The position numbers and the translations under genes are program-made. A DNA stretch of 64,000 nt from Flavisolibacter tropicus (GTDB lineage Bacteria; Bacteroidota; Bacteroidia; Chitinophagales; Chitinophagaceae): NCBI RefSeq assembly GCF_001644645.1, contig NZ_CP011390.1:620001-684000 (forward strand). Reading direction: 5' to 3'. Positions 40,777 to 62,648 of the stretch are shown one piece after another (the first letter of the stretch is position 1; the number at the start of each line of letters is the position of its first letter). A model generated the notes under the pieces. It made no database searches, was not told where the DNA came from, and saw nothing but the letters and a program-made list of their open reading frames with translations.

Positions 40777-40788
40777 TGACCAGCATCA
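40777..40788. promoter_or_regulatory. FNR-like box, one mismatch (TGAC-CAGC-ATCA)
   Basis: The reverse strand reads TGATGCTGGTCA, close to the TGATGnnnGTCA boxes at 45091 and 59352. It lies far (227 bases) from the BON start, so its role is doubtful. Confidence 0.3.
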
Positions 40789-41014
40789 TTGATAACCTTG
40801 ACTACACTCATTCAGACAGATTATAAAACAACCTTTCTTTGAATTAGTTATGAGGTAGTAGATCTATCATAATTCACTTTTCGCTACCAGATGGTAAACA
40901 CGCTCTCCCCTACCTTTTGTATTGAAACTTCTTGGAACAGATATACCCATGAATAACATTAGCAAGTTATTGCTTTAACGTTGAGGTCTTTTCTAAATAC
41001 TTAAATATACCAGT

Positions 41015-44392: not shown

Positions 44393-44404
44393 TGATGCAT
44401 ATCA
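44393..44404. promoter_or_regulatory. FNR-like box TGAT-GCAT-ATCA
   Basis: An exact TGAT-N4-ATCA palindrome is centred about 71 bases before the small membrane protein start at 44470. Confidence 0.6.
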
Positions 44405-44469
44405 TTTGTTAACGTCATCGCCCTCATTAAGCAGGGAAATAAAAAGGCAGACATTATAAAGAAAATAGT

Positions 44470-44670
44470 ATGGCACTATCAATTTACCCCAGGTCTTTAT
44501 TAACTCAAATGAGTTCTTCCAGTAACAAGGTACCCCTTTATAAAATCTTGCCTTGGACGTTAGCCTTCGTGGTAATAGGTTTAGGGGCATCAATAATAAA
44601 AAGTACTATTAGCATTTTTATGATGAAACTATATGAATTTTTTATTGAAAAAAATGCCTTGAAGTTATGA
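44470..44670 (+). CDS. Small membrane protein upstream of the interrupted gene
   Basis: The 66-residue ORF has one hydrophobic helix (about 29-51, WTLAFVVIGLGASIIKS). Its TGA overlaps the next start codon as ATGA, which argues that it is translated. An exact FNR-like box precedes it. I do not recognise a family. Confidence 0.45.
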   Translation: MALSIYPRSLLTQMSSSSNKVPLYKILPWTLAFVVIGLGASIIKSTISIFMMKLYEFFIEKNALKL

Positions 44671-45026
44671 TCCTGCACATTGATGATTCGATGACTGTCT
44701 CGGATGTTTAAGACAAATTCTCGCGATGTTTCCCCAACTTGAAAATTGAGTTTTATGCAAAACAACACCATTTTAAAGAGGGGTCATCAGACGTACAAAG
44801 ATTAGATTCTAGTATAGCACTATCAATCATCAGACAGAATCATACCCCAGAAAACCTCGCCATTATATCAAGTGATCGAGCTGGAGACATTGAACGGAAG
44901 TTTATGAAGGTCTTTGGTTTGAATATTCAGGTGTTCCGAAAAGAAAATGGCTCTTGGAAACAAACAGGTAACTCGGACACTTGTACCCTTAAAGAGCTTA
45001 GTGATCTTTCAACCCATTCCTCCTGA
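44667..45026 (+). pseudogene. Small Bacteroidota-type protein with in-frame TAA at codon 15
   Basis: Starting at ATG 44667 the frame reads MILHIDDSMTVSDV, then TAA (44709-44711), then DKFSRCFPNLKIEFY and on to VFRKENGSWKQTG. It aligns without a gap over 30 residues with the paralogue at 52152-52550 (MQLYLAPTTKVGDVKEAF and PFLKLEFF). The paralogue has lysine at the stop position. One base change (CAA or AAA to TAA) would explain the stop. The remaining frame is intact, so the mutation is recent, or the TAA is read through, or translation restarts at TTG 44739. Function unknown. Confidence 0.6.
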
Positions 45027-45090
45027 TAAGCCATGTTATCCGTATTAGCCGAGCAACTGTTTATCTAATGACAGCTATCACGAGCCACCT

Positions 45091-45102
45091 TGATGCCAGT
45101 CA
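45091..45102. promoter_or_regulatory. FNR-like box TGAT-GCCA-GTCA
   Basis: One mismatch from TGAT-N4-ATCA. It is centred about 55 bases before the ppsA start and shares TGATGnnAGTCATTGA with the box at 59352. Confidence 0.5.
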
Positions 45103-45151
45103 TTGAACTTGTATCATTTACACACCAACTTTACTATTACAAACCAGCAAA

Positions 45152-47551
45152 ATGCAACCCTTTATAAAGAAATTCAACCAGGTAAATTTGGCAGACATAA
45201 CAGCAGTGGGTGGTAAAAACGCGTCTTTGGGTGAGATGCTAAACCAGCTTTCATCCAAGGGTATACGTTTGCCCGACGGTTTTGCCGCCACTGCTTCTTG
45301 CTTTTGGAATTTTCTTGAAAGTTATAATCTCACCACCGCCTTGCAACAATTAATGGATCGCCTGGACCGGAACAACTATGTCAATTTAAAAGAAATTGGT
45401 AAAGCTGCAAGAGAATTAATTCTTAGTCATGAGTTGCCCCCAGCAACCCAGGCACAGATTATAAATGCCTACCGGGAACTAAGCGGTACTGAAGATATTG
45501 CTGTAGCCGTTCGCAGTAGCGCCACAGCAGAAGATCTACCGGAAGCCAGTTTTGCCGGCCAGCATGACTCCTTCCTTCATATTGAAGGCGGAGAAGCTGT
45601 TATACGTGCGGTACACAAATGCTTTGCCTCTTTATATACTGACCGGGCGATCAAATACCGGGAGGATAAAGGTTTTGACCATAGCAAAGTGGCTATATCA
45701 GTTGGTATCCAGAAAATGGTTCGCTCAGACAGAGGCAGTGCCGGTGTTTGTTTTACATTAGAACCCGAATCCGGTTTTCGTGATATTATTCATATCAGCG
45801 GTGTTTGGGGATTAGGTGAAAATATTGTACAAGGTACTATCAACCCTGATGAGTTTTTGGTATTCAAGCCTACTCTGGCTCAAAATAAAAATGCCATCAT
45901 CCAAAAAAGATTAGGCGATAAGGCACAAACAATGATCTATGCTACAGACAGTAGTTCTACTACCTATAACATAGACACGCCGCTTAACAAGAGAGAACAA
46001 TTTGTTTTAGCTGACCATGAAATCAAGCAATTGGCAGAGTGGTGCCTGATTATTGAGGAGCATTACAAAAAACCCATGGACATTGAATGGGCTAAGGACG
46101 GCATAACAGGTGAAATGTTTATCATTCAAGCCCGACCTGAAACGGTGCATTCACAGAAAAAACTAAATACCGTAACGGAATACGCTCTCCAGGAAAAAGG
46201 TGAAAAAATTACTTCTGGAAATGCCATTGGATTTAAAATAGCTTCCGGGAGAGCACGTATTGTACACTCTCCGAATGAGGACAGTCAAATTGAAAAAGGT
46301 GACATTATTGTTACCGATACCACAAGTCCCGATTGGGACCCTATTTTAAAAAAAGCAAGCGCTATTGTTACAAATAAAGGCGGGCGGACCAGCCACGCCT
46401 CCATCATTGCACGCGAATTGGGCATCCCTGCCGTGGTTGGCTGTGGAAACGCTACTGAAGAAATTAATAATGACATGCCAATAACCGTTTCTTGCGCTGA
46501 AGGGAAAACGGGAAATGTTTATAGAGGCCTGCTGAAATGGAAAGTAGAAGAACATGACTTTAATAACATGTATTTGCCCCGCCATACAAAACCCTTATTA
46601 ATAATAGGAGAACCGGAAAAAGCATTTCAGCTTTCCTTTTACCCTAACGAAGGCGTTGGCTTAATGCGTCTGGAATTTATTGTCAACCATTATATGCAGA
46701 TACACCCCATGGCATTAGTCAAGTTTGATGAATTAAAAGACCAGGCGGCAAAACATAAAATTGAAGAATTAACCCACAGCTACAAACATAAGCAGCAGTA
46801 TTTCATAGACAAAGTATCACAGGGTATCGCCACAATTGCCGCAGCATTTTATCCCAAAGATGTTATTGTAAGGCTTAGTGATTTTAAAACAAATGAATAT
46901 GCCAACCTCATTGGAGGAAAAGAGTTTGAGCCAAAAGAAGAAAACCCTATGATTGGGTTTCGGGGAGCCTCCCGCTATTACCACCCTTTGTATAAAGACG
47001 CTTTCAAACTGGAATGTAAAGCCGTACTTAAAGTGCGAAATGAAATGGGATTCACTAATGTGAAAGTAATGATTCCCTTTTGTCGTACGCTACAAGAAGG
47101 TAAACGTGTTATAGAAGAAATGGAAAGACATGGCTTATCCAGAGACTATAGTCCATCACTGGAAATTTATCTTATGGTGGAGATTCCTAGTAATGTGATT
47201 CTTTTAAATGAATTTGCTCAAGTATTTGATGGCTTCTCTATTGGTTCAAATGATTTAACCCAATTAACATTGGGTATTGACCGCGATTCTGCTATTGTTA
47301 GCCAGCTGTTCAGTGAGCAGGACCAGGCTGTCAAAACCATGCTTTCTATGGCCATTCACCGAGCCAACGAAGCGGGCATTAAAATTGGGTTATGTGGCCA
47401 GGCCCCCAGTGATATGCCTGATTTTGCCCAGTTTTTGGTTGAGCAAGGTATTACTAGTATTTCCTTTAATCCCGATGCACTACTTAAGGGTATACAGAAT
47501 ATTGTAGAAGCAGAAAATAAATTAAAATCACCCGCAAACCTTTCATTGTGA
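45152..47551 (+). CDS. ppsA: Phosphoenolpyruvate synthase
   Basis: The enzyme makes PEP from pyruvate and ATP. The 799-residue protein has the ATP-grasp N-terminal domain (about 1-345, AVRSSATAEDLPEASFAGQHD), the swivelling phosphohistidine domain (KGGRTSHASIIARELG, His415) and the C-terminal PEP-binding barrel (GSNDLTQLTLGIDRDS, GLCGQAPSD). The length is normal. It begins a three-gene unit with overlapping starts (GTGA and ATGA) running into the dehydrogenase and a split-barrel gene. PEP synthase also occurs in DosR-like dormancy regulons. Confidence 0.95.
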   Translation: MQPFIKKFNQVNLADITAVGGKNASLGEMLNQLSSKGIRLPDGFAATASCFWNFLESYNLTTALQQLMDRLDRNNYVNLKEIGKAARELILSHELPPATQAQIINAYRELSGTEDIAVAVRSSATAEDLPEASFAGQHDSFLHIEGGEAVIRAVHKCFASLYTDRAIKYREDKGFDHSKVAISVGIQKMVRSDRGSAGVCFTLEPESGFRDIIHISGVWGLGENIVQGTINPDEFLVFKPTLAQNKNAIIQKRLGDKAQTMIYATDSSSTTYNIDTPLNKREQFVLADHEIKQLAEWCLIIEEHYKKPMDIEWAKDGITGEMFIIQARPETVHSQKKLNTVTEYALQEKGEKITSGNAIGFKIASGRARIVHSPNEDSQIEKGDIIVTDTTSPDWDPILKKASAIVTNKGGRTSHASIIARELGIPAVVGCGNATEEINNDMPITVSCAEGKTGNVYRGLLKWKVEEHDFNNMYLPRHTKPLLIIGEPEKAFQLSFYPNEGVGLMRLEFIVNHYMQIHPMALVKFDELKDQAAKHKIEELTHSYKHKQQYFIDKVSQGIATIAAAFYPKDVIVRLSDFKTNEYANLIGGKEFEPKEENPMIGFRGASRYYHPLYKDAFKLECKAVLKVRNEMGFTNVKVMIPFCRTLQEGKRVIEEMERHGLSRDYSPSLEIYLMVEIPSNVILLNEFAQVFDGFSIGSNDLTQLTLGIDRDSAIVSQLFSEQDQAVKTMLSMAIHRANEAGIKIGLCGQAPSDMPDFAQFLVEQGITSISFNPDALLKGIQNIVEAENKLKSPANLSL

Positions 47552-48588
47552 GAACCCTGTTTTATAATACAAAAAGTTACGAACGCAACTTTCTAGAGCA
47601 CGCTAAGGCAGAACATACTGTTTTGTATACATCTGAAGGCCTTACAACTCAGACAGTTGGACTGGCAAAAGGATTTGAGAGCATTAGCATTTTTGCCACC
47701 GATACCGCTGATGCTCCTGTCCTTCGTGCATTAAAGATGATAGGCGTTCGCTATATTACCATACGTTCACCTAATTATGAAAATGTGGATATAGCGGAAG
47801 CAAACAGTCAAGGTATTCATGTTGCAAACGTACAGGAATATTCGCCGCATGCCGTTGCTGAACATGCTCTTTGTTTATTGCTAGCCTTAAGTAGAAAAAC
47901 GATTCAGGCACATGAGCAGGTACAACAGTTGGATTTCACCTTGGATCACTTAATTGGTTTTGATCTTATGGGGAAGAAAGTAGGCCTGTTAGGTACGGGA
48001 AAGATTGGAAGCGCTATGGCTAAAATCCTTCATGGTTTGGGTTGTACGATACTGGCCTATGATGTAGACCGTAACCAGCAACTGGAAAACAACTATAATG
48101 TCTATTATGTTGGGCTTCATACACTGTGTAGTATGTCGGATATTATCTCCATTCATTTACCACCAAATAATGAATCCTATCCCCTTGTGACCAGCAGTTT
48201 CTTCAGTAAAATGAAAAGAGGGGTTATCATAATTAATACGGCTAGTGGTGCTGTGCTAGACACTATGGCCTTGATTGAGTACTTGGAGAGCGGTCATATA
48301 GGTGCGGCTGGGCTGGATGTGTATGAAAATGAAAAAGAGATTTTCTACCAAGATTTATCACAAAGTATGCTAAAAGATCCTATCCTGTTAAAACTAATGA
48401 GCTTTCCAAATGTAATTATTACTCCCCATCAAGGCTTTGCCACTAAAGAAGCATTGACTAAAATGGCAATGACCACTTTTGAAAATATCAGCTGCTGGGA
48501 ACAAAAGAATAGTTGTGCAAACCAAATTACGTATGGTTTGCAAAATGAGCTAGCCACTAAGTTTCAATCAAACAATATCGAATCATGA
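47548..48588 (+). CDS. D-lactate-dehydrogenase-like 2-hydroxyacid dehydrogenase, catalytic Arg replaced by Ser
   Basis: The 346-residue protein follows fermentative D-lactate dehydrogenase (LdhA). It shows the NAD motif GLLGTGKIGSAMAK, GLDVYENEKEIFYQDLS, and TPHQGF with the catalytic His294. The substrate-binding arginine of the family, expected in NTSRGA, is serine here (NTASGA, S233). The codon is AGT, one base from an arginine codon. E262 is conserved. It starts with GTG overlapping the ppsA stop. Loss of the arginine would strongly lower activity on a 2-oxoacid, so it may act on another substrate or be crippled. Confidence 0.85.
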   Translation: MRTLFYNTKSYERNFLEHAKAEHTVLYTSEGLTTQTVGLAKGFESISIFATDTADAPVLRALKMIGVRYITIRSPNYENVDIAEANSQGIHVANVQEYSPHAVAEHALCLLLALSRKTIQAHEQVQQLDFTLDHLIGFDLMGKKVGLLGTGKIGSAMAKILHGLGCTILAYDVDRNQQLENNYNVYYVGLHTLCSMSDIISIHLPPNNESYPLVTSSFFSKMKRGVIIINTASGAVLDTMALIEYLESGHIGAAGLDVYENEKEIFYQDLSQSMLKDPILLKLMSFPNVIITPHQGFATKEALTKMAMTTFENISCWEQKNSCANQITYGLQNELATKFQSNNIES

Positions 48589-49043
48589 TAGGCCACCTTA
48601 CAGAAACAGAATGCAAGGGCTTCTTAAAAAAAGAGATCGTAGGGCGTATTGGATGTAGTGTTAATGATGAGACATATGTAGTACCAGTTAACTATTTGTT
48701 TGATGGCAACAATATCATTGCACATTCACAGGAAGGAAAAAAGATTGAGATGATGCGGTTAAACCCGAAGGTGTGCTTTGAAGCGGATGATATGAAAACT
48801 TTAAAAAACTGGAGAAGTGTAATTGCCTGGGGGACATATAAAGAGATAACGGACGATACAGAGAAATGGGATACTCTTCACAATTTTGTTAACCGAATGA
48901 TGCATTTTAAGTTCAGTGAAACAGCGCTTCCCCCTGAAATAATGCCACAGCGTATGCATCCCAGAAGTGGAAAGCTAAAGACAGTAGTCTTTAAAATTAT
49001 AATTGACAAACTAACTGGTAGGTATGAAATTGAAGATGAGTAA
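48585..49043 (+). CDS. Pyridoxamine-5'-phosphate-oxidase-like FMN split-barrel protein (first copy)
   Basis: The 152 residues carry the split-barrel pattern IVGRIGCSVNDETYVVPVNY, IAHSQEGKKIEMMRLNPKVC and WRSVIAWGTYKEI. Such proteins bind FMN, F420 or haem and are common in stress regulons. It is a paralogue of the gene at 55341 over its whole length. It starts in ATGA overlap with the dehydrogenase stop, so it is translationally coupled. Confidence 0.88.
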   Translation: MIGHLTETECKGFLKKEIVGRIGCSVNDETYVVPVNYLFDGNNIIAHSQEGKKIEMMRLNPKVCFEADDMKTLKNWRSVIAWGTYKEITDDTEKWDTLHNFVNRMMHFKFSETALPPEIMPQRMHPRSGKLKTVVFKIIIDKLTGRYEIEDE

Positions 49044-49075
49044 AAAACTATGTTATCCCTTCTATTCTACTAGCA

Positions 49076-50137
49076 TTAATTCCTCATATTTTTCAACTTT
49101 ACTTCATTTAAGATAGTTACGTTTCCATCTTTAATATCAATAAGCTTCTCATTACGGAAGTCAGTTAGTGTCCGTATAAAAGATTCTGTGGCCGTTCCTG
49201 CGAGTGCTGCCATGTTTTCGCGGCTCAACTGGATAGCAGGAACTCCGCTGGGTTGTTGCTGTGACACCTTTTCTTTCATCACTAATAAAGCGTTCGCCAC
49301 CTTTTTTCGAAGCGAGTTGTAAGCAATATCCAGCAACTGCTGCTCTTTTTCAGCTATGTTGTGCGAAAGCAACTTGATAATTGTTTTAGTCACTTCTGTA
49401 TTATGATAGATTATCTCTTCAAACTCTGACTTGGGAAGCATGATCAGTTCCGTTTCTTCAACAGCTTGCGCCGTTTCTTTATAGGTCACTCCTTCAAGGA
49501 GAGGTACATAACCAAAAAACTCTCCTTCTTTATACAAGCCTGTAATGAATTCTTTTCCATCATCATTAATTTTAAAAGTTCTTACTCCTCCTTTTTGTAT
49601 ATAGAAAAGGTAATGGGGGTGATTGCCAGAAAAGTAGATGATCTGCTTTTTTTTGTACTGACTGGTTCCTCTTCCGTCTATGAATTCATGAAGGGCCTGT
49701 TCACCCGACATGTGCATATGAATCTGATTGATACCCTTTATGCCTTCAGCAATCTCCTGCTTCACCAAATCAGACTTTTGCAGCCGTTTTTGTATTGCAT
49801 TCAACAGCTCTGTAGCAGTAAAGGGCTTTGTGATATAATCATCTGCACCTAGCTCCATTCCCATTCTAAAGTCGCTTCGTTCTGACTTGGCTGAAAGAAA
49901 AATAAATGGTGTATGGCTTAAATCAGAATGCTTATTTAGCATATGAAATACCCCATACCCATCCACCTCTGGCATCATTATATCGCATAAGATGAGGTCT
50001 GGCTTTTCCTGCACAGCAACTTCAACTCCCTTCTTACCATTCTCAGCCTTTAGTACATGATAATTAGAAAGCTCCAGCAGTTCTGCCGTATTTTCCAGTA
50101 ATGGCACATTGTCTTCAATTACAAGAATCTTTTTCAT
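49076..50137 (-). CDS. Response regulator with REC, cNMP-binding-like and Crp-type HTH domains
   Basis: This 353-residue transcription factor joins a phosphoreceiver (about 1-120; D9, phosphoacceptor D52 in LILCDIMMP, K104 in YITKPF) to a cupin-like Crp/Fnr sensor domain (about 145-265, IQKGGVRTFKINDDGKEFI, EGEFFGYVPLLEG). A Crp-type winged helix follows (about 290-350). Its recognition helix, TATESFIRTLTDF, keeps the Glu and Arg that contact the core G:C pair in Crp/Fnr proteins. No N-terminal cysteine cluster for oxygen sensing is present. It is encoded next to a PAS histidine kinase, the likely partner. The TGAT-N4-ATCA boxes in the island are its most likely targets. Confidence 0.9.
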   Translation of the reverse strand: MKKILVIEDNVPLLENTAELLELSNYHVLKAENGKKGVEVAVQEKPDLILCDIMMPEVDGYGVFHMLNKHSDLSHTPFIFLSAKSERSDFRMGMELGADDYITKPFTATELLNAIQKRLQKSDLVKQEIAEGIKGINQIHMHMSGEQALHEFIDGRGTSQYKKKQIIYFSGNHPHYLFYIQKGGVRTFKINDDGKEFITGLYKEGEFFGYVPLLEGVTYKETAQAVEETELIMLPKSEFEEIIYHNTEVTKTIIKLLSHNIAEKEQQLLDIAYNSLRKKVANALLVMKEKVSQQQPSGVPAIQLSRENMAALAGTATESFIRTLTDFRNEKLIDIKDGNVTILNEVKLKNMRN

Positions 50138-50336
50138 AACGACTCTTTAATCTGAATTAAATAATGGGAATAGATCTACTGTTTTCGAGATAGGGTTATT
50201 TATGAAGTACTGTAAAGCTAGAAAATTCTTTAGTGTAATTCAACCTACCATACTATCAGCTTTATACACCAAAAGTTTTTTGATCGCCAATACCCGTTTG
50301 GTAACAAATAGCAAGAATATTTTTTTCAGGATTAAA

Positions 50337-51905
50337 TTATGATTCCAATATAGGATTAGGCAATTCTACAATAAAAGAAGTGCCTTTGCCAATATTGCTT
50401 TCAATTTGAATCCGTCCACTCATTAACTCGACATACTTGGCTATAATATGCAAACCCAGCCCTGTTCCTTGTATAGTGGCGGCATTAGGTGCCCTAAAAA
50501 AGCGTTCGAACAAATGCTGCTGGTCTTCTTCTGAAATTCCTATGCCTTTATCTGTAACCACCAGGTTTAACAGGCCATCTTTTATCTCACACACCACATT
50601 TATACAAGAATTCTCAGGGGAAAATTTTATGGCATTAGACAGTAGGTTAGTTAAGATATTTCGCACCAATGCCCTATCTGTATAAACACTACTTTCTCCA
50701 GAATGGTGAAATGCTATCACCTGACCAGGCTTGACTATTTGCTGTAATTCCTGAACCAGTTTTTCAATCTCCGTTATATAATCACGGAATTCTATTAATT
50801 CCATCTTTGGTTTTACAGTACCTTCTTCAAGCTTACCCAGTGACAGAAAATCTTCCAAAATTGTTTTCATGCCAATAACGCAATCTTTAATGCGTAGGAT
50901 TTGTTTTTCAACTTTCTCGTTCTTATCAATGGTATTGTACTTCTCCAATATGTCTGCAGAAGAAAGGATGGTACTAAGAGGGGTTCGAAACTCATGAGAA
51001 GCCATAGTGACGAATCTCGACTTTAAGTCACCTAACTCCTTTTCCTTTTCCAAAGCATCACTTAATTCTTGTTTCGACTTTTCCAGTTCAATTAAGGCAT
51101 CTTTTAGTAGTTGCGTACGACTCTCTACTTTTGTTTCTAATTCCTGATTATTTTGTCTGATGCGAAATGCTGTATGCTCCAACTCTACCTTTTGTTGAAG
51201 CACCACCTGTTCGTTTTCTTTACGGAGTGTAATATCCACTACAAAAGCGATGACATAAGTTTCATTACCTAATTTGTAATAACTCAAACTTACTTCTACC
51301 GGGAACTCTTCTCCAGCTTTATTGCAAGCGTAAAGCTCCCTACCCGCCCCCATTATACGAGGCTGCAAATGATGATAGAAATTTTCTCTATGCTTAATGT
51401 GACGCGCTTGAAAGGTGGTTGGAATCAGTATTTCCACACATCTGCCCACCACTTCTTGCTCTGTATAACCAAATTGAGATTCTGCATATTTATTGAAATT
51501 CCGGATAATACCTTCTTTATCAGTTACAACTATACCAATTGTTGCATAATTAAAGAGTGATTCAAGTTTCAACAAATTCATAGCGGCCTCATTGGTCAAA
51601 TTCTTACTAAGTAAAATGATAATACAAGTGAAGGCTATGCCGAAAGCTAAATTTAAAAAGATAGCCAGTGATGAAAAATTACTTTCTTCATGTAAAACAT
51701 AAAAATCAAGAAACATGACTCCTAACCCTGCAATGCTAATAATTAAAGTATGGAGCCTTCTTACAGAAAAAAGTGTACAGACAATCGCAACAATGTAGAA
51801 GACTTTAATATGATAACTGGGAAATAGGAATGTATTGATAAGCCCCAGGCTTAAAAATATATAACCAATGATCAGCCAATAGTCGTTCTTCCTGGAAAGT
51901 GACAT
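50337..51905 (-). CDS. PAS-domain membrane sensor histidine kinase
   Basis: From the ATG at 51905 the protein has 522 residues. Four hydrophobic segments occupy about 1-115, a PAS domain about 125-245 (YATIGIVVTDKEGIIRNFNK), and a coiled-coil linker (ELETKVESRTQLLKDALIEL) follows. HisKA comes next, with the phospho-histidine in ASHEFRTPLSTI, then the HATPase domain with NLLSNAIKFSP, DKGIGIS and GTGLGLHI. The longer reading from 52004 adds 33 residues of doubtful value. It is upstream of the REC-cNMP-HTH gene on the same strand, forming a probable two-component pair. The signal is unknown. Confidence 0.9.
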   Translation of the reverse strand: MSLSRKNDYWLIIGYIFLSLGLINTFLFPSYHIKVFYIVAIVCTLFSVRRLHTLIISIAGLGVMFLDFYVLHEESNFSSLAIFLNLAFGIAFTCIIILLSKNLTNEAAMNLLKLESLFNYATIGIVVTDKEGIIRNFNKYAESQFGYTEQEVVGRCVEILIPTTFQARHIKHRENFYHHLQPRIMGAGRELYACNKAGEEFPVEVSLSYYKLGNETYVIAFVVDITLRKENEQVVLQQKVELEHTAFRIRQNNQELETKVESRTQLLKDALIELEKSKQELSDALEKEKELGDLKSRFVTMASHEFRTPLSTILSSADILEKYNTIDKNEKVEKQILRIKDCVIGMKTILEDFLSLGKLEEGTVKPKMELIEFRDYITEIEKLVQELQQIVKPGQVIAFHHSGESSVYTDRALVRNILTNLLSNAIKFSPENSCINVVCEIKDGLLNLVVTDKGIGISEEDQQHLFERFFRAPNAATIQGTGLGLHIIAKYVELMSGRIQIESNIGKGTSFIVELPNPILES

Positions 51906-52151
51906 TGCATTGATTGAACACCATAAAATTACGCCAAACCTGAGACGTATCACGCAACATAAAGAGGAATAGATCAGGTTGAAGGTAATGGTCGCCTTTT
52001 CCAATTAATAATAAGCACTACTGCAAAACGAAACAATCTTTATGAGATGGATTGTAAATAATTTATTCTGTAAAGTGACCCGGAGAATATTTAAAGCTAT
52101 GCATCTTCAATATCATAGCTTTAACATTAGTTAATAGCAATTTCTTTACCC

Positions 52152-52550
52152 CTACCCTTCATCATAAAACTGTTCATTCTGGGGTGCCATCAATGAAGCT
52201 TCACGCCCCATTTCATTTTGATGTTCCAACGAAAGATTGTCCGTTTCTGTAGTTTCAATCCAAAGATTGCCCATTTTGCGAAATACCTGAACCGGAAGGT
52301 TGAATTTTCGCTGGAACAATTGTTCTACCTCATTTACACTCTGGGATGGAATAATATCTATATCGCCTTCCCTCATTACTCCAAGCACTTCTACCAACAG
52401 GGTATAATCAGTTGCTTTATCGCTTAAAGGAGTGCCTTTACCTGGCTGGTGTTTACTTTTGAAAAACTCTAGTTTTAAAAAAGGAAATTCTAAATGAAAT
52501 GCTTCTTTAACATCGCCTACTTTGGTAGTGGGAGCCAAATACAGTTGCAT
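52152..52550 (-). CDS. Small conserved protein (paralogue of the interrupted gene at 44667)
   Basis: This 132-residue protein is of a type I have seen repeatedly in Bacteroidota. An N-terminal MQLYLAPTTKVGDVKEAFHL resembles the start of a ubiquitin-like fold. It is followed by PFLKLEFFKSKH, a VNEVEQLFQRKFNLPVQVFR segment and NLWIETTETDNLSLEHQN. It is divergent from the P-type ATPase gene, with an exact FNR-like box between them. Function is unknown. Paralogy with 44667-45026 was established by direct alignment. Confidence 0.8.
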   Translation of the reverse strand: MQLYLAPTTKVGDVKEAFHLEFPFLKLEFFKSKHQPGKGTPLSDKATDYTLLVEVLGVMREGDIDIIPSQSVNEVEQLFQRKFNLPVQVFRKMGNLWIETTETDNLSLEHQNEMGREASLMAPQNEQFYDEG

Positions 52551-52625
52551 ACAATATTTATTCTATTGAATTAAAGTTCATTTGTTTTCAAGGCTTTTAC
52601 AATGACGGGCCTCAGCTGCCTTTGC

Positions 52626-52637
52626 TGATTGATATCA
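52626..52637. promoter_or_regulatory. FNR-like box TGAT-TGAT-ATCA
   Basis: An exact TGAT-N4-ATCA in the divergent spacer, centred about 82 bases before 52550 (minus) and 115 before 52747 (plus). The 12-mer is identical to that at 62468. Confidence 0.6.
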
Positions 52638-52746
52638 TTGGCCCCACTAGTATGCGACATGAGCTGTGTCAGTAAATAGGTTAACTTCTATTTGTAATTT
52701 AATAGTGACAGCCTGTGGGCCGATCAAGTACAATAAATAAATCGTT

Positions 52747-55218: not shown

Positions 55219-55258
55219 GGCTATCAAGTCTAACATAAAATATAATAACCTAATGCCA

Positions 55259-55270
55259 TGATACCAATCA
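55259..55270. promoter_or_regulatory. FNR-like box TGAT-ACCA-ATCA
   Basis: An exact TGAT-N4-ATCA centred about 77 bases before the split-barrel gene at 55341. It overlaps the left end of a 22-bp palindrome. Confidence 0.6.
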
Positions 55271-55286
55271 CTTTATAAAGTGATTG
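55265..55286. repeat. 22-bp perfect palindrome
   Basis: Half-site CAATCACTTTA is followed directly by its reverse complement. It lies 46 bases after the ATPase stop and 54 bases before the next start. Without a T run it is more likely an operator than a terminator. Confidence 0.7.
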
Positions 55287-55340
55287 ACCTCATTCAATAA
55301 TAAGTAGTGATAAAATAATTTAACTGATAAATAGAGTGTC

Positions 55341-55814: not shown

Positions 55815-56025
55815 CCTGTCCATCTTGCTAACCTTGTATTGGTTGTTTTTACTATTCCAGGATCATAATTCAATTAAAAAGAGCTTAAACCATTTCTTTT
55901 TCTGTAAGAAATTTCGTTTTACCTTACCAATAGAAACCTGCTAATTTATTCCTCTTAATCAATTGCTATGCGCTAATATACCTAAATGCATATAGCGCAT
56001 ACATAATTTAAAGTAACAACCAGCA

Positions 56026-56508
56026 TTAGATTGATAAGGCATATTCTTGAATTAGTTGGGGGATCTGCAAAGGTTCGGCCACATGATCTACTGAACCACC
56101 TTCTATGGCATGCTGTGGCAAGTACTTACATGTACTTGAAAGCGGGTCTTGAGCAATCTCCAATCCGCCGGCACTTTTAATGGCCTGTGCCCCAGAAACG
56201 CCATCAAAGCCGCTTCCAGAAAGTATAACACCGATGGCCCGCTTTCCAAGTTCCTGCTTAGCCATTGAGCCAAAAAAGCGATCAACACACAAATTTTGTC
56301 CGGCAACAGGTCTTGCTACCAGTTCAAGTTTACTGTTTTTTAAAATGAGGTCCTGTGCTGAGGGCGCTATGTAGACCGTATTTGCCCTCAATGGCATTGA
56401 TTGAGCAACATTTATCAGTTGCAGTTGAGAGTGTTGCTGCAGGATATCTTTCAGGTGACTTTGAAAATTTCTGGGAATATCCTTTGTTCTGCCTTTATTA
56501 AATATAAT
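56026..56508 (-). pseudogene. cheB: CheB-type methylesterase catalytic domain, N-terminally truncated
   Basis: The frame is open from 56508, after a TAA. It encodes FNKGRTKDIPRNFQSHLKDI, then MPLRANTVYIAPSAQDLIL, VDRFFGSMAKQELGKRAIGV, ILSGSGFDGVSGAQAI and QHAIEGGSVDHV, the C-terminal two thirds of a CheB methylesterase domain. The N-terminal portion with the active-site serine motif (G-x-S-A-G-G) is absent. The first ATG, at 56397, is internal to the fold. No receiver domain, CheR or other chemotaxis gene is nearby. It is probably a remnant. Confidence 0.7.
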
Positions 56509-56574
56509 TTACTAACAAACAAGATCATTGTTGAAGGTTACTTCATCTCATAACCCATCAAAATGATAAGGACG

Positions 56575-57396
56575 TTATTTATCTTCTAAAACTAGTAGCG
56601 GGACCTTGGTCTCATATGTTATCGATCGGGTATATATTTTGCCTATTATCCGCTCTATAATTTTGTGGCGGTGTGCTATCATTACCAACAAGTTTATCGG
56701 ATGATTGTCCATGTAAATCTGAATGCCACTTTCCACATCATCATCTTCAACTTCTTCATGCGAAAATGAATGAATTTTAGAAAAAGTCTGGCCAAGTTGT
56801 ACTCTGCCGGGTACCTCCATACCTGACATTACCGCACCACTCTTTTGTATATGTAACAAGCGCAAAGAAGCTTCAAATTTCTCAACCATGTCTAAGAGTA
56901 TACTAAAGCAAGTTGCGTCTTCTACTCCTTCAAAATCAGTAGCCAGAACAATATTTTTGATCGGACTGAACTGGGATTGTTCTGGGACCAACAACACAGG
57001 CAAATTGGATTTACGTATGATTGACAGGACTGTACTTCCAAAAAACCTGTGAGGATGATCTCGTTTCATACCCATTACAATTAAATCTGTACTCATTTTT
57101 CTGGCAGTTTCCATGATGGAGTCGCCCTTGTACCCCATTACTACAGATCCGCTGACATCAATGCTATAAGTTTCTTTTAAAAAATGAATCTCTTTTTGAA
57201 GTTGGGTTTCGTTAGCCTGTTGCTGCGCATCATTTATTATCATCCAGGCTGAAGGATCCTCCCCTGTCGGTCCTGGTTCCATGTATACATGAACTAAATA
57301 CAATTTTGCTAAGAAGAGCTGCGCCAGAGAAGCTGCATAATTACTGGCAGCACGTGAGGCATCTGTAAAATTGATTGCCACCAATATTCTTTTCAT
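56575..57396 (-). CDS. Universal stress protein, tandem-domain (fourth)
   Basis: This 273-residue UspA-family protein has two domains (MKRILVAINFTDASRAASNY and KNIVLATDFEGVEDATCF). The first keeps a near-canonical nucleotide motif, MGMKRDHPHRFFGSTVLSI, so ATP binding is more plausible than in the cluster at 41.7-44.3 kb. An exact FNR-like box lies 71 bases upstream, and the divergent SDR gene has another box. Confidence 0.92.
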   Translation of the reverse strand: MKRILVAINFTDASRAASNYAASLAQLFLAKLYLVHVYMEPGPTGEDPSAWMIINDAQQQANETQLQKEIHFLKETYSIDVSGSVVMGYKGDSIMETARKMSTDLIVMGMKRDHPHRFFGSTVLSIIRKSNLPVLLVPEQSQFSPIKNIVLATDFEGVEDATCFSILLDMVEKFEASLRLLHIQKSGAVMSGMEVPGRVQLGQTFSKIHSFSHEEVEDDDVESGIQIYMDNHPINLLVMIAHRHKIIERIIGKIYTRSITYETKVPLLVLEDK

Positions 57397-57467
57397 GTTG
57401 CAATTTTCACTAAGTAAAACTGGAAATTAGTCCCGCAGAAAAGAATGACCTCTATTTGCATGATTAC

Positions 57468-57479
57468 TGATACCTATCA
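57468..57479. promoter_or_regulatory. FNR-like box TGAT-ACCT-ATCA
   Basis: An exact TGAT-N4-ATCA centred about 77 bases before the usp start at 57396. With flanks it reads CTGATACCTATCAA, one base from the E. coli FNR consensus TTGAT-N4-ATCAA. Confidence 0.65.
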
Positions 57480-57571
57480 ATAAATAGAAAGGTAATAGTA
57501 AAGTCTCCGATAAATACCCTGTTTCTATTTGGCATTTATTTTTGCATTCCACTTGCAATCAGTATTCCTGT

Positions 57572-57583
57572 TGACAATTATCA
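57572..57583. promoter_or_regulatory. FNR-like box TGAC-AATT-ATCA
   Basis: One mismatch (on the other strand TGAT-AATT-GTCA, as in the ppsA and mgtA boxes). It is centred about 53 bases before the SDR start at 57631. Confidence 0.5.
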
Positions 57584-57630
57584 TTGCTCTGGCTTTTCTG
57601 GTCTGCTAGCTTAAGATCAAATTCGTGTAT

Positions 57631-58392
57631 ATGGAATTGATATTTCAAAACCAGGTAGCCTTGGTAACCGGTGGCAGCTTTGGTATTGGCCGGGCGGCGG
57701 CTATAGCTTTTGCACAGCGAGGTGCCAAAGTTGCAGTAGCAGATTGGATTAAAGACGAAGAGAATACAACCTTGGAAAGGATCAATGAAGCGGGTAGTGA
57801 AGGAATATTTATTCAGTGCGACGTTTCCAAACATGCAGACGTAAAAAAACTCATTGACCAAACTATAGCCACTTTTGGTAGACTCGATTGTACCTTCAAC
57901 AAGGCTGGTATTGAAGGCATTATTGCGCCTACACATGAATGCACCGAGGAGAATTGGGACAAAACCATTGCTATTAATCTGAAGGGAGTATGGCTTGGCA
58001 TGAAGTATGAACTAACGCATATGCTTTTATTAGGCAAAGGGGTGATCGTCAATTGCGCTTCGGTAGTCGGATTGACCGGTTTCAAGGGATTACCTGCTTA
58101 TGTAGTCAGTAAGCATGGATTGGTAGGCCTAACAAAAACGGCCGCGTTGGAATATGCCAATGCAGGTATAAGGATAAACGCAGTCTGCCCTGGTGTAATT
58201 CATACGGCTATGATAGATAGGATTACCGGCCGAGACAATGAAGTGGAAAAACAATACACAGTTATGGAACCAATTAGCCGCATGGGGGATCCCAAAGAAG
58301 TAGCCGAAGCCGTGGTATGGCTATGTTCTGATGCTGCTTCCTTTGTAACAGGACATGCCATGACAGTTGATGGTGGATTCACGGCTGGATAG
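57631..58392 (+). CDS. Short-chain dehydrogenase/reductase
   Basis: The classical SDR of 253 residues has the cofactor motif TGGSFGIGRA, the catalytic serine in NCASVVG and YVVSK (Tyr and Lys). The C-terminal end is typical (SFVTGHAMTVDGGFTAG). The usual NNAG motif reads NKAG, an uncommon change of the second Asn. The ATG at 57631 is preferred over GTG at 57625. The substrate is not predictable. Its own FNR-like box places it in the putative regulon. Confidence 0.9.
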   Translation: MELIFQNQVALVTGGSFGIGRAAAIAFAQRGAKVAVADWIKDEENTTLERINEAGSEGIFIQCDVSKHADVKKLIDQTIATFGRLDCTFNKAGIEGIIAPTHECTEENWDKTIAINLKGVWLGMKYELTHMLLLGKGVIVNCASVVGLTGFKGLPAYVVSKHGLVGLTKTAALEYANAGIRINAVCPGVIHTAMIDRITGRDNEVEKQYTVMEPISRMGDPKEVAEAVVWLCSDAASFVTGHAMTVDGGFTAG

Positions 58393-58472
58393 AAACTGTT
58401 TTAATGAAACTTGTCTTCAAATTAATTTGCAGTTAAGAAAAATACTCTTTGTCATCTATATGGCTTTAAAAT

Positions 58473-58510
58473 ACAATAACCCCACTATTTATAAATAGTG
58501 GGGTTATTGT
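58473..58510. terminator. 38-bp perfect palindrome, bidirectional terminator
   Basis: ACAATAACCCCACTATTTA is followed directly by its exact reverse complement. It lies between the convergent SDR and hsp20 genes and forms a long GC-centred hairpin with AT-rich ends. Confidence 0.75.
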
Positions 58511-58528
58511 TGTAGGTGGAAAAGGATA

Positions 58529-58975
58529 CTACTTTACAGTAACATGTTTGGAAACTTTTGGCTTTCGTGCTTCTTCCTTTTTAGGAAGAGTCAGATTCAG
58601 TACCCCATCTTTGTAATTTGCCTCAATACTATCCTGCTTTACATCATCGGGTAGTGTAAAACTACGTGAGAAAGAAGTGTAGTTATATTCTCTTCTTGTA
58701 TAGCGCTCATCCTTTTCTTCCATTTTATCTTCCTTTTCTGCACTAATGGTGAGAACATTATTTTCTACATCAATATTAAAATCTTTGCTTTTTAGTCCTG
58801 GAGCAGCAACAGTAACTTTATATTCATTTCCATTTTCAATAATATTTACTGCTGGCAAATTGGCTCCCTTACCCAATAAGCGGCTGCCTTCAAACATATC
58901 AGTCCAAGGCCGGAAAAAATCATCGAAAAGACCAGAGAAACCTGATTCAGGCCTCATTAATGCTTTAGTTGCCAT
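58529..58975 (-). CDS. Small heat-shock protein, Hsp20 / alpha-crystallin family
   Basis: This ATP-independent chaperone holds unfolding proteins. The 148 residues contain the alpha-crystallin domain (about 45-135, PAVNIIENGNEYKVTVAAPG, NVLTISAEKED, YKDGVLNLTLPK) and a short C-terminal tail (VSKHVTVK) with a VxV that may stand for the IxI oligomerisation motif. A one-mismatch FNR-like box lies about 92 bases upstream. Confidence 0.95.
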   Translation of the reverse strand: MATKALMRPESGFSGLFDDFFRPWTDMFEGSRLLGKGANLPAVNIIENGNEYKVTVAAPGLKSKDFNIDVENNVLTISAEKEDKMEEKDERYTRREYNYTSFSRSFTLPDDVKQDSIEANYKDGVLNLTLPKKEEARKPKVSKHVTVK

Positions 58976-59061
58976 GATTGTAGGTTTTAGAGTGAAGTAA
59001 TAAGAAATTAAAACTACTTCTTACAAGTACAGGCGCCAACGATGGTTGTCAGCCAAAAGGG

Positions 59062-59073
59062 TGAGTTCAATCA
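59062..59073. promoter_or_regulatory. FNR-like box, one mismatch (TGAG-TTCA-ATCA)
   Basis: Centred about 92 bases before the hsp20 start. Only one of the eight fixed bases differs. Confidence 0.4.
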
Positions 59074-59351
59074 GTATCTTACAACCGTACACTCCTTTTG
59101 CTAACAACCACTATTTCTTTCTTATTGTTCAGCGGTCTTTTGTAAAAAGAAATAAGACATAGACCTGCGCTAAAAAACATTTGGTTATAAAAAATATAGT
59201 TAATGTTGTTTCAAATTGAAGACACCACTTTTACCATTGGATTGACAAATGTGTAAAGGCATATAGTTTTCATTTCTGATTCCTCTTACATTATCAGTTT
59301 AAAGCCAAAGCTTCGTTTGACCGGCAGGCCAATAACAAATTCCTTTATTGC

Positions 59352-59363
59352 TGATGAAAGTCA
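59352..59363. promoter_or_regulatory. FNR-like box TGAT-GAAA-GTCA
   Basis: One mismatch, centred about 88 bases before the mgtA start. It shares TGATGnnAGTCATTGA with the ppsA box. Confidence 0.5.
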
Positions 59364-59445
59364 TTGATAAGAGAATACTGAAATTGTACTTTTCTTAGTA
59401 AGTATTCTTCTCTTTTAGATATTCTGTTCTCAAACAAGGCATTAT

Positions 59446-62040
59446 ATGAAAATAGTAAGGGGCAGATCATTGACAATGAAAAGTATATCCAACGAGATGG
59501 GATTACCTCTAAACGAACTGAAAACAAGGATGGGTTTTTTTAGAGAAGGACTGACTACACAGGAAGCCACGAAACGCCTGCAACAATATGGCTTTAATGA
59601 AATTGCAAAAGAGAAACCTTTATCTGCTTTAAAACGACTGTGGAACCACCTGAAAAACCCATTGGTCATCTTGCTTTCCGTTCTGGGTGTTGTTTCCTGG
59701 CTTACCAGTGATATCAGAGCAACCATTGTCATTTTTGTAATGGTGTTGCTCGGCATTATCTTACGATACTTCCAGGAAATGCGGGCCGATAAAGCTGCTG
59801 AAAAATTAAAAGCAATGGTCAGCACCCATGCCTCTGTACGAAGAGATAACAAAGACATAGAAATACCCCTGAAAATGTTGGTGCCTGGAGACATTATTAT
59901 GCTTGGTGCTGGCGACATGGTTCCTGCTGATGTACGGATACTTTCAGCCAAAGACCTTTTTGTAAATCAAGCTGCCCTTACCGGCGAATCTCTTCTAGTG
60001 GAAAAGAATGACAAAGAAAGCCATTCAGAAAACAATAATCCACTGGAGCTTTTGAATACCTGCTTCTTAGGTACCAATGTAATAAGTGGTTCAGCAACGG
60101 CACTGGTGATCCATACCGGAGATGATACTTATTTTGGCAACATCGCTTATAATTTGGCGGGTGAGCGACAACCAACAAGTTTTGATAAAGGTATAAATCG
60201 TTTCACCTGGCTGATGATCCGGTTTATTTTTATCATGGTGCCTGCTGTTTTTCTAATTAATGGGCTGAGCCGGCACAATTGGGTAGAGGCTTTTCTATTC
60301 GCTTTGGCAGTAGCAGTGGGACTAACGCCGGAAATGCTTCCAATGATTATTTCGGTCAACCTTTCAAAAGGGGCCATTGCGATGTCCCGTAAAAAAGTAA
60401 TTGTTAAGCGCTTAAACTCTATACAGAATTTTGGTGCGATGGATGTTTTGTGTACAGATAAAACAGGAACTATCACCAGAGGCAAAATTGTTTTGGAACA
60501 ACACCTTGACGTAAAAGGTGGTGAAAGTCAGAAGGTGCTGGACTTTGGCTACCTGAACAGCTTTTATCATACCGGATTAAAAAACATCATGGATGATGCA
60601 ATTCTGGATCACGAAGAATTGGAAACGGCTTTAAAGATCAAGGATACCTACAAAAAAATTGATGAAATTCCTTTTGATTTTGTGCGTAAGCGAATGTCGG
60701 TAGTAGTGGAAGACAAAACAGGTTTAAACATGTTGATTTGTAAAGGAGCGGTGGAGAATTTACTTGATTTATGCACACAAGTAGAAGTAGGCAGAGAAAT
60801 GAAGGTAATGAAAAATGAAGACAGGGAAGAGTGCCTTCAGTTGGTGCACCGCTTAAATAGCAATGGCTTTCGTGTGTTAGCAATTGCCTATAAATACATT
60901 CCGGGTGGATCAGATGAACAGGTTTACAAAACAGCTGATGAAAGTGACCTCGTGCTGCTTGGTTATCTCTCTTTTTTTGACCCTCCAAAAGAAACAGCCT
61001 CTGAGGCTTTGCAGCGGTTAGAGAAATTAAATATAGAGGTAAAGATTCTCACCGGCGACAATGAGGCCATTACTGCTTACATCTGTAAAAAAGTGGGCAT
61101 AAAAACGGAGCAAGTTTTGCTTGGGCCTGCTATTGAAAATATGACCGAAGAACAACTGAAAGAGGCGGCGGGGAATTATAATGTGTTTGCACGGTTGGTA
61201 CCGACTCATAAAAAAAGAATCATTCAGGCATTACAGAAGAGTGGCCATGTGATCGGATTTATGGGTGATGGCATTAACGATGCTCCTGCACTGAAAGCTG
61301 CCGATATTGGTATTTCAGTTGATAGCGCAGTGGATGTAGCAAAAGAGTCCTCGGATATTATTTTACTGGAAACCAGTTTGTTGGTTTTAGAGCAGGGCGT
61401 GGCTGAAGGAAGAAGAGTATTTGGTAACATCATCAAATATATTGAGATGGCCGCCAGTAGCAATTTTGGTAATATGTTCAGTGTAGTTGGCGCCAGTGCC
61501 TTTCTCCCTTTTGTACCCATGTTACCTATTCAGATCCTTACAAATAACCTGCTATATGACTTTTCACAAACTACTATACCAACCGATAACGTGGATAAGG
61601 AGTGGTTAATAAAGCCTCGAAAATGGGCCATCGGTGAACTGCAACGATTTATTCTTTTTATTGGTCCAATTAGCTCTATATTCGATTACATCACGTTTTT
61701 CATTATGTGGTTTATCTTTCATGCAAAGAATAATGAGGCTTTATTTCATACAGGTTGGTTTGTTGAATCCTTGTTTACACAAACACTGATCATCCATATC
61801 ATTCGTACTAATAAAATTTCTTTCATTCAAAGCCGTGCTTCCTGGCAGTTAATTACAAGTTCTATTATCATTGTTTTTGTGGGTGCGTGGCTGACGGTAT
61901 CACCCCTTGCTACAACGTTAGGCTTTGTATCCTTACCACCACTTTATTGGTCATTACTTGTCTTGATTTTATTCTGTTACATCATACTTACGCAACTGAT
62001 GAAAAGCTGGCTAATCCGCAGGTACGGTGCGTCCCGTTAA
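59446..62040 (+). CDS. mgtA: Magnesium-transporting P-type ATPase
   Basis: This 864-residue P3B-type pump imports Mg2+ along its gradient at ATP cost. The order is AALTGESLLVEK actuator motif, LCTDKTGTITRGKI with D338, MGDGINDAPALKAADIGIS, then VDVAKESSDIILLE and the C-terminal helices with SNFGNMFSVVGASAFLPFVPM. These match MgtA/MgtB. An alternative start at 59476 (MKSISNEMG) would drop ten residues. The mgtA leader regulators of enteric bacteria are not evident. A one-mismatch FNR-like box is upstream. Confidence 0.93.
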   Translation: MKIVRGRSLTMKSISNEMGLPLNELKTRMGFFREGLTTQEATKRLQQYGFNEIAKEKPLSALKRLWNHLKNPLVILLSVLGVVSWLTSDIRATIVIFVMVLLGIILRYFQEMRADKAAEKLKAMVSTHASVRRDNKDIEIPLKMLVPGDIIMLGAGDMVPADVRILSAKDLFVNQAALTGESLLVEKNDKESHSENNNPLELLNTCFLGTNVISGSATALVIHTGDDTYFGNIAYNLAGERQPTSFDKGINRFTWLMIRFIFIMVPAVFLINGLSRHNWVEAFLFALAVAVGLTPEMLPMIISVNLSKGAIAMSRKKVIVKRLNSIQNFGAMDVLCTDKTGTITRGKIVLEQHLDVKGGESQKVLDFGYLNSFYHTGLKNIMDDAILDHEELETALKIKDTYKKIDEIPFDFVRKRMSVVVEDKTGLNMLICKGAVENLLDLCTQVEVGREMKVMKNEDREECLQLVHRLNSNGFRVLAIAYKYIPGGSDEQVYKTADESDLVLLGYLSFFDPPKETASEALQRLEKLNIEVKILTGDNEAITAYICKKVGIKTEQVLLGPAIENMTEEQLKEAAGNYNVFARLVPTHKKRIIQALQKSGHVIGFMGDGINDAPALKAADIGISVDSAVDVAKESSDIILLETSLLVLEQGVAEGRRVFGNIIKYIEMAASSNFGNMFSVVGASAFLPFVPMLPIQILTNNLLYDFSQTTIPTDNVDKEWLIKPRKWAIGELQRFILFIGPISSIFDYITFFIMWFIFHAKNNEALFHTGWFVESLFTQTLIIHIIRTNKISFIQSRASWQLITSSIIIVFVGAWLTVSPLATTLGFVSLPPLYWSLLVLILFCYIILTQLMKSWLIRRYGASR

Positions 62041-62317
62041 ACATGTATCTAGAAATGGAGTTCTCTTATTCTTTTGTGTTAGCCTTGGAGCTCCTGTCAG
62101 TGTAGCTATTATGGTAACCTAGCTATTCAGGCTACTGGCATTTTGGCTACATATGCCGATTAGCCTCCTTTTGTATAGTGGCTTACTTAAAAAGGCAACC
62201 TACAAAGCTAGAGCCCTTTAAATTGATACATACTACCTATTACAAAAATTCCAGTTGTAGTTTATGCACAATTGGCGGAGAAGCAACCATTCGCTAATTG
62301 TTGCTACAAAAAATGAA

Positions 62318-62337
62318 CACATTTGATATCAAATGTG
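62318..62337. promoter_or_regulatory. 20-bp perfect palindrome CACATTTGATATCAAATGTG
   Basis: The sequence equals its own reverse complement and contains the TGATATCA core that also appears in the boxes at 52626 and 62468. It may be a related or independent operator. Confidence 0.5.
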
Positions 62338-62467
62338 AATCGTAAATCATAATTACTGTTTTCAAGACTTTACTACAATCTTATCATTGGCAGGTTAATA
62401 CTCCGGTAATCTAAAATAAAAATACACTAGATGTTTCCAACTTTGGTTGGGTACTACTATCAGTGAA

Positions 62468-62479
62468 TGATTGATATCA
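62468..62479. promoter_or_regulatory. FNR-like box TGAT-TGAT-ATCA
   Basis: Exact match, identical 12-mer to the box at 52626. It is 169 bases before mlaE, farther than the other boxes, so its target promoter is uncertain. Confidence 0.5.
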
Positions 62480-62648
62480 GCACATTCAGTGATAGTTTCT
62501 ATTAAAAATATTTTTAGAAGAGAATGCAAATCAATGGTTGGATTGACGGACATCATTGAAATCTGCTTAAAGGTAGAATAGTTTTATAAACACATTAATA
62601 AGAAGATGGATGAGTAAGCACATTTATGTAGCTGAATAATGATACATC

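Follow-up and report, generated by a model that had tools for sequence, protein, structure and literature searches.

Under low oxygen, Mycobacterium controls its usp, hsp20, and P-type ATPase genes through the two-component regulator DosR, a gene set also found at the locus described here; DosR differs in having a LuxR/NarL-type output domain and an unrelated box. In E. coli, ArcA is a response regulator of the redox and oxygen state whose DNA elements are repeated at 11 or 22 bp, i.e., at one or two helical turns (PMC3798270), and in Rhizobium a small heat-shock gene lies under an anaerobox (PMC11784457); these and the other literature statements below draw on excerpts of the papers cited. 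The present work concerns a gene island in a 64,000-nt stretch of DNA from Flavisolibacter tropicus (the window, whose positions are used throughout). Its spacers carry the palindrome TGAT-N4-ATCA, which the original prediction took for the box of an FNR-like regulon. These boxes are real and far above chance. They are probably the operators of a response regulator encoded in the island (49076-50137), in which a receiver is fused to a CRP-type output and which is presumably phosphorylated by the adjacent PAS kinase, and they would define a microoxic or anaerobic regulon.

Throughout the text, family refers to Chitinophagaceae and phylum to Bacteroidota, according to the nearest named loci. Among the open-licence PMC papers that our searches listed, viewed mainly as titles and beginnings of abstracts, we found neither a Bacteroidota regulator of such kind nor an account of receiver-CRP operators or of CRP/FNR dyads paired at 22 bp.

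A paired operator at a fixed promoter position

The five exact copies of TGAT-N4-ATCA on which the prediction was based (44393, 52626, 55259, 57468, and 62468) and the four one-mismatch boxes (45091, 57572, 59062, and 59352) are all present, and three of the latter share TGAT-N4-GTCA, on either strand. A sixth exact copy, at 11472, lies outside the island within the open frame 11159-12079; the whole window holds 6 versus 1.78 expected, and at least 6 were found in 2 of 100 shuffles. Genome-wide, 169 exact copies over 5.94 Mb correspond to about 0.51 in the 18.1 kb spanned by the named boxes, where 5 are observed. With 52 kb of own-genome spacers within 400 kb as background, the 14 island spacers (3184 bp) contain 5 exact sites versus 0.18 expected and 10 matches to TGAYN4RTCA versus 0.49. 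The excess claimed for the island spacers is thus borne out, and unrelated spacers of this genome do not match the island in motif frequency. Counting each strand separately, the longer form TGAYN4RTCATT matches 75 times in the genome; 10 of these matches, two of them opposite strands of one site, fall in the 21.8 kb of the island versus 0.28 expected. All nine boxes lie in spacers, as had been stated, if the 125-aa minus-strand frame 57559-57936 over 57572 is spurious; the proposed centring 54-93 bases before a start codon holds for eight of them (about 53-93 bp by hand, given assignment of 52626 to the 52152 gene) and fails for 62468, at about 175 bp.

The motif was picked after inspection of this very window, which is a weak point; independent tests come from de novo scans elsewhere and from a matrix trained on other genomes. 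The scans ranked all gapped palindromes with 3-base half-sites in the spacers of loci around regulator orthologues, with the window unused. TGA-N6-TCA was ranked top in both sets, with 92 sites versus 15.9 expected in 16 stretches (14 other genomes) and 314 versus 52.5 in 80 named loci, while other palindromes came out on top in the own-genome background spacers. With 4-base half-sites, TGAT-N4-ATCA was first in the 16 stretches and second to TGAC-N4-GTCA in the 80 loci.

The palindrome turned out to be half of the element. Among 287 canonical TGAY-N4-RTCA sites in the other genomes (equal thresholds, own genome excluded), 164 have a dyad partner exactly 22 bp away on either side; counting partners with at least 7/8 matches on both sides, 168 lie at 22 bp, 9 at 21, 8 at 23, and at most 7 at each remaining offset (average 1.84). 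In the 80 named loci, such a partner stands at -22 in 69 of 223 canonical spacer sites and at +22 in 64 of 222, with a median of 1 over offsets, and sites in coding frames pair more weakly (10 and 4 of 124). An operator was then defined as one box with 8/8 matches plus any partner with 6/8 at 22 bp or 7/8 at 21 or 23 bp, so that the resulting spacing tally of 191/6/6 (22/21/23 bp) favours 22 through its unequal thresholds. The 258 operators consist of two boxes in 177 cases, one in 68 and three in 13; single boxes make up 63 of the 241 operators from other genomes. TGAT-N4-ATCA alone was therefore dropped as the unit, the operator being usually a pair, and the exact palindromes at 44393, 52626, 55259, and 57468 occupy the distal place in theirs. 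An origin of the pairing by tandem duplication was ruled out, since identity between the N4 segments of paired boxes (0.283) is hardly above chance; a near-identical linker is common to another operator in 6 of 180. Elsewhere, G151:C333:5122-5221 holds four overlapping tandem matches, i.e., five boxes in 22-bp steps, an array beyond the usual pair.

The pair also has a fixed place relative to the promoter. After 83 operators with genes on both sides and 6 with neither had been set aside, the sigma-A -7 box TAnnTTTG begins 35 bp after the start of the proximal box (29.5 bp past its centre) in 43 of 169 oriented operators; at other positions, the mean is 0.18 and the maximum 5. As the -7 box of Flavobacterium sigma-A occupies -12 to -5 (PMC9723704), the dyad centres therefore fall at -41.5 and -63.5, the former being the class II position as far as predicted, not mapped, start sites allow. 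In 113 of 159 oriented boxes, the base right after the proximal dyad is a T, at the place where the -33 element would be. In contrast to the FNR-proper site TTGAT-N4-ATCAA, of which the inner TGAT-N4-ATCA is present, the outer T is rare: only 34 of 159 oriented proximal boxes from other genomes have it in front of TGA. Taken together, dyad, 10 bp, dyad, 23 bp, and TAnnTTTG form a transferable promoter grammar, for a regulon found in many genomes of one large class.

The fusion regulator and the spread of its predicted operators

The presumed reader of the boxes and its presumed partner are encoded by adjacent genes:

49076..50137, minus strand: response regulator, presumed box reader (Pfam Response_reg, cNMP_binding, HTH_Crp_2)
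50337..52004, minus strand: PAS histidine kinase, presumed partner and sensor (Pfam PAS, HisKA, HATPase_c)

D9, D52, and K104, which include the phospho-acceptor Asp and the conserved Lys of a two-component receiver, and the helix residues E318 and R322 are invariant across 34 aligned regulator sequences. The cNMP-binding fold and the Crp-type helix-turn-helix, with sequence matches to the structures 2gau, NtcA, CRP, and FixK2, place the protein in the CRP/FNR superfamily; its output is thus CRP-type and not of the LuxR/NarL type found in FixJ. The window regulator has no N-terminal Fe-S cysteine cluster, its sole cysteine being C51 in the receiver. A single-chain structure model (mean pLDDT 79, pTM 0.49) is uninformative on dimer or tetramer contacts. 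The PAS domain of the kinase matches FixL heme-PAS structures (E 1.7e-14), and H202 and R222 align with the His and distal Arg of FixL, which we take to be the residues that matter there; across kinase rows, the His occurs in 70 of 82 and the Arg in 15 of 82 (window kinase counted twice).

The full regulator was present in 96 of 100 sources, and a kinase homologue directly adjoins 81 regulators. At E 1e-30, 152 of 195 family genomes gave a match, which in 137 reached 1.7e-88 or better; at E 1e-50, 43 of 296 phylum genomes did, all of the same class. In the own genome, the regulator has two paralogues, of 77% and 49% identity. The former belongs to a second island (G000:C1:1.205-1.240 Mb; L053, L054) with a 74% identical usp and its own tandem operators, one of which (17.3) lies about 300 bp upstream of the paralogue, next to which no kinase homologue was seen. 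The latter (G000:C1:858-876 kb; L055) has an adjacent kinase and hemN, cytochrome c, COX2, and RIC-like genes.

Tandem operators track the receiver-CRP fusion gene. The exact tandem pattern occurs 958 times in the 195 family genomes and its reversed control 24 times. Per Mb, it reaches 1.33 in genomes with the regulator only (114), 1.73 in those that also encode a receiver-less Fnr-like protein (24), 0.55 with the Fnr-like protein only (27), and 0.15 with neither (30), at 0.01-0.04 for the control; one genome with a partial regulator at a contig end (G078) was moved from the weak to the regulator group. Outside the family, 62 genomes of the same class were compared, and 223 of other classes were left out of the tally: 35 genomes with the regulator hold 111 sites (0.68 per Mb, control 1) and 27 without it hold 10 (0.09 per Mb, control 9), a difference with P 3.6e-5. 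The similarity of pattern and control in the latter is as expected for background. In genus g108, all 4 regulator-positive genomes and none of 13 negative ones have at least 2 tandem sites. Unusually large regulons are predicted in G163, G035, and G074, with 32, 29, and 27 exact tandem operators; the median is 5 in regulator-positive family genomes.

A lack of conservation at orthologous promoters, which the original prediction had named as a refutation, is not what we see: operators recur before orthologues of some island genes. In other genomes, considering upstream spacers of at least 75 bp and operator scores of at least 12, an operator precedes Hsp20 in 15/16, Usp in 20/25, and the 52152 family in 11/13 cases, versus 134/591 for genes of the same loci without an island homologue; the matrix was partly trained on these loci, which affects both groups alike. 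Further values are 30/73 for kinases, 9/21 for the regulator itself, 4/16 for P-type ATPases, 3/5 for PNPOx, and 1/1 for SDR. The 52152 gene (52152-52550, minus strand) encodes a 132-aa protein with no Pfam or NCBIfam match, which is uncharacterised and may belong to the core of the regulon. In a scan for protein families that covered 120 of 176 two-box targets of up to 700 aa and 120 of the 1097 remaining genes in these loci, Usp made up 12 targets versus 3 other genes, kinases 20 versus 8, and receiver domains 6 versus 16; the non-target sample contains FixG and FixH genes, i.e., cbb3 assembly neighbours.

Operators and genes of the island

The island encodes a BON protein, four Usp, phosphoenolpyruvate (PEP) synthase (ppsA), a 2-hydroxyacid dehydrogenase (LDH), two PNPOx-like proteins, the receiver-cNMP-Crp response regulator, the PAS histidine kinase, two P-type ATPases, a CheB fragment, an SDR, Hsp20, and MlaE. 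A 70-bp matrix built from 159 operators of other genomes, two congeners included and the own genome left out, gives 10 sites scoring at least 16 in 22.3 kb of island versus 2 in 400 kb of own background; one of the latter, ahead of an acyl-CoA transferase gene, may be genuine. The best window scores belong to PNPOx2 (27.7), ppsA (26.7), BON-usp (26.7), and hsp20 (26.4), followed by the Mg-type ATPase (24.5), mlaEF (24.4), SDR (22.1), and usp4 (20.5). The whole genome holds 9 exact tandem pairs, 3 of them in the island, and none of the reversed pattern. Predicted leaders range from about 8 to 169 nt.

40777..40788, plus strand: distal dyad of the BON-usp-usp-usp promoter; exact tandem match, matrix score 26.7
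40799..40810, plus strand: proximal dyad of the same promoter; -7 box TTTCTTTG at 40834-40841, predicted leader about 169 nt
44393..44404, plus strand: exact dyad in the distal place, with a degenerate proximal partner at 44415-44426; score 16.6, without a good -7 box; the gene after it is a short frame starting at 44470
45069..45080, plus strand: distal dyad of the ppsA promoter; exact tandem match
45091..45102, plus strand: proximal dyad of the ppsA-LDH-PNPOx group; score 26.7, -7 box CAACTTTA at 45126-45133
52603..52614, minus strand: proximal dyad of the 52152 gene, 23 bp from 52626; -7-like GAACTTTA at 52572-52579; read from the sequence
52626..52637, minus strand: exact dyad, distal for the 52152 gene; sequence match
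52660..52671, plus strand: weak single box of the first ATPase (52747); score 9.0, -7 box TAATTTAA at 52695-52702
55259..55270, plus strand: distal dyad of the second PNPOx (split-barrel) gene; exact tandem match
55281..55292, plus strand: proximal dyad of the second PNPOx gene; score 27.7, the best of the window, -7 box TAATTTAA at 55316-55323
57446..57457, minus strand: proximal half-box of usp4; -7 box CAGTTTTA at 57415-57422
57468..57479, minus strand: exact dyad, distal for usp4; pair score 20.5
57572..57583, plus strand: single box of the SDR gene (ATG at 57631); score 22.1, -7 box TAGCTTAA at 57607-57614
59040..59051, minus strand: proximal box of hsp20; -7 box TAGTTTTA at 59009-59016
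59062..59073, minus strand: distal box of hsp20; pair score 26.4
59352..59363, plus strand: single strong box of the Mg-type ATPase; score 24.5, -7 box TACTTTTC at 59387-59394
62468..62479, unstranded: exact dyad with no -7 box; the mlaE box follows 76 bp downstream; minus-strand score 17.7
62544..62555, plus strand: proximal box of mlaEF; score 24.4, -7 box TAGTTTTA at 62579-62586

The dyad at 52603 is not among the matrix matches because the matrix assumes 22 bp, and no gene was found in the minus-strand direction from 62468. The predicted target list missed the BON-usp-usp-usp (40777/40799) and mlaEF (62544) promoters, and the box of its first ATPase (52747) is weak. Two side observations concern the surroundings. 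The CheB-like frame at 56026-56397 (minus strand) spans only profile positions 61-174 and looks truncated or broken, and the non-coding stretch 38500-39450 shows, by eye, a long inverted repeat and a segment that is repeated, which may be what is left of a mobile element.

Cue, reader and comparison with known systems

The predicted targets elsewhere in the genome bear on the cue. Among the matches listed and in the sampled stretches, operators stand before two cytochrome c genes, one scoring 31.0, whose divergent Rrf2 neighbour scores 21.4, and the other 17.9; before ccoN of the cbb3 oxidase (30.8) and hemN (22.7), both of which pass their NCBIfam cut-offs; and before genes for a COX2 protein (24.6), glucokinase (22.8), and an acyl-CoA transferase (26.3). 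A weak operator (13.9) precedes the gene for a RIC-like protein that stays under its own NCBIfam cut-off; further predicted targets encode PBP, DUF892, DUF4342, and YiaAB proteins, with no evident oxygen link. In Bradyrhizobium, Usp, Hsp20, cbb3, PEP synthase, glucokinase, and MlaE are induced by microoxia, and some Usp, cbb3 subunits, and Hsp20 are marked as FixK2 targets, unlike PEP synthase, glucokinase, and MlaE (PMC6515984). Oxygen limitation is the probable cue because of the own-genome target set and this induction.

In the mechanism we propose, the PAS kinase 50337-52004 would phosphorylate the regulator, of which a dimer would bind each TGAY-N4-RTCA dyad. The full operator would accommodate two dimers on the same helix face, centred at -63.5 and -41.5 and separated by two turns (22 bp). 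The proximal dimer would activate sigma-A polymerase in class II fashion, the TT right after the dyad coinciding with the place of the -33 element. The regulon would comprise Usp, PEP synthase, Hsp20, the PNPOx-like proteins, one P-type ATPase, and MlaEF in the island, and the cbb3 oxidase, HemN, cytochromes c, and the acyl-CoA transferase elsewhere in the genome.

The strongest rival, though an unlikely one, accepts the regulon and replaces the cue: the kinase would sense redox, nitric oxide, or energy, and Usp, Hsp20, and the ATPases would be general stress genes. Heme ligation by the kinase is putative, with the distal Arg in 15 of 82 rows, and this PAS subtype may retain the His (70 of 82) for other reasons; moreover, ScdA/hemerythrin (RIC-like) genes among the targets also suit nitric oxide. 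Conversely, the predicted targets include the cbb3 oxidase, the oxygen-independent HemN, and cytochromes c; Flavobacterium raises its cbb3 and heme genes under oxygen limitation (PMC9723704), and the Bradyrhizobium counterparts of Usp, PEP synthase, glucokinase, MlaE, and Hsp20 respond to microoxia, as cited above.

A distinctly less probable alternative is that a plain Fnr-like protein of the CRP family with N-terminal cysteines reads the boxes and the fusion gene is merely a neighbour. Among receiver-less CRP-family proteins of other genomes, 7 of 8 have N-terminal cysteines together with a recognition helix like that of the fusion, GTATE[ST]xIRxLSE, and genomes with only the Fnr-like protein exceed those with neither in tandem sites (0.55 versus 0.15 per Mb). 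It is therefore plausible that Fnr-like proteins are a second reader in other genomes, and the idea that pairing needs the receiver was dropped, since Fnr-like-only genomes also have pairs. Yet, no Fnr-like protein was matched at E 1e-50 in the own genome or in both congeners searched, and tandem sites are richer where only the regulator is present (1.33 versus 0.55 per Mb). The own genome yielded just two other HTH_Crp_2 matches: L251, which has N-terminal cysteines but a different helix (TYETVFKF), and the sub-threshold L254 (PETLSR); CRP-type proteins beyond the reach of the search may exist. The regulator beside the island genes, with its lone C51, is itself not an Fe-S FNR.

Chance or the base composition of AT-rich spacers is a negligible explanation, for although the finding was picked by eye from one window and the 169 exact copies genome-wide are close to the approximately 173 calculated by hand from 40% GC alone, background spacers predict 0.18 sites versus 5 and independent loci repeat the motif, the pairing, and the -7 spacing, which refutes chance for the motif and leaves it as a possibility for the single weak boxes 44393, 52660, and 62468.

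Several observations weigh against the proposed mechanism with the fusion regulator. None of the 30 best window matches lies before the kinase or regulator gene of the window itself, and the three paralogous regulators of the genome could all read the sites. The sampled homologues of ppsA (0/4), BON (0/3), and mlaE (0/2) lack an operator, so that these genes were dropped as conserved targets, and it is also absent before sampled LDH (0/3) and mlaF (0/2). Regulator-positive genomes without an exact tandem site number 6 of 138 in the family and 11 of 35 outside it, and G456, which belongs to another class and lacks the regulator, shows 7 tandem matches. The excess over background in Fnr-like-only genomes indicates that paired sites do not belong to the receiver fusion alone, and the P values are too small because species are not independent.

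The fusion regulator nevertheless remains our preferred reader, and a candidate master switch for the cbb3 oxidase and low-oxygen survival in the phylum, tied to one protein architecture. More tentatively, the arrangement may be class-wide in aerobic Bacteroidota, with FixL/FixJ/FixK compressed into a heme-PAS kinase and a receiver-CRP regulator whose receivers would lock two CRP dimers two turns apart into a cooperative four-subunit switch.

Among described systems, FixL-FixJ-FixK2 of rhizobia shares with this locus a PAS kinase resembling FixL, a receiver, a DNA reader of CRP/FNR type, and the TGA-N6-TCA core, as well as the genes for cbb3, HemN, Usp, PEP synthase, Hsp20, and MlaE. In contrast, receiver and CRP domain are here in one protein, as if FixJ and FixK had collapsed, the outer T of TTGA-N6-TCAA is not conserved, the dyads are paired at 22 bp, and phylum and promoter type differ. 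ArcA is likewise a response regulator of the redox or oxygen state with elements repeated at helical-turn spacing, but it has an OmpR/PhoB-type output domain and direct repeats instead of CRP dyads. FNR, Anr, and FnrN, the Fe-S or redox oxygen regulators of the CRP family, have the TGAT-N4-ATCA core, the class II position at -41.5, and oxygen-related targets in common with the present system, which differs by its receiver domain, the lack of an N-terminal cysteine cluster, and the second dyad at -63.5. The label FNR-like therefore fits the site class, the gene set, and an FNR/FixK-type regulon that is plausibly oxygen-linked, and does not fit the receiver-CRP fusion without the FNR cysteines: this is an FNR-like regulon by function and site class, with operators in pairs and a regulator of another kind.

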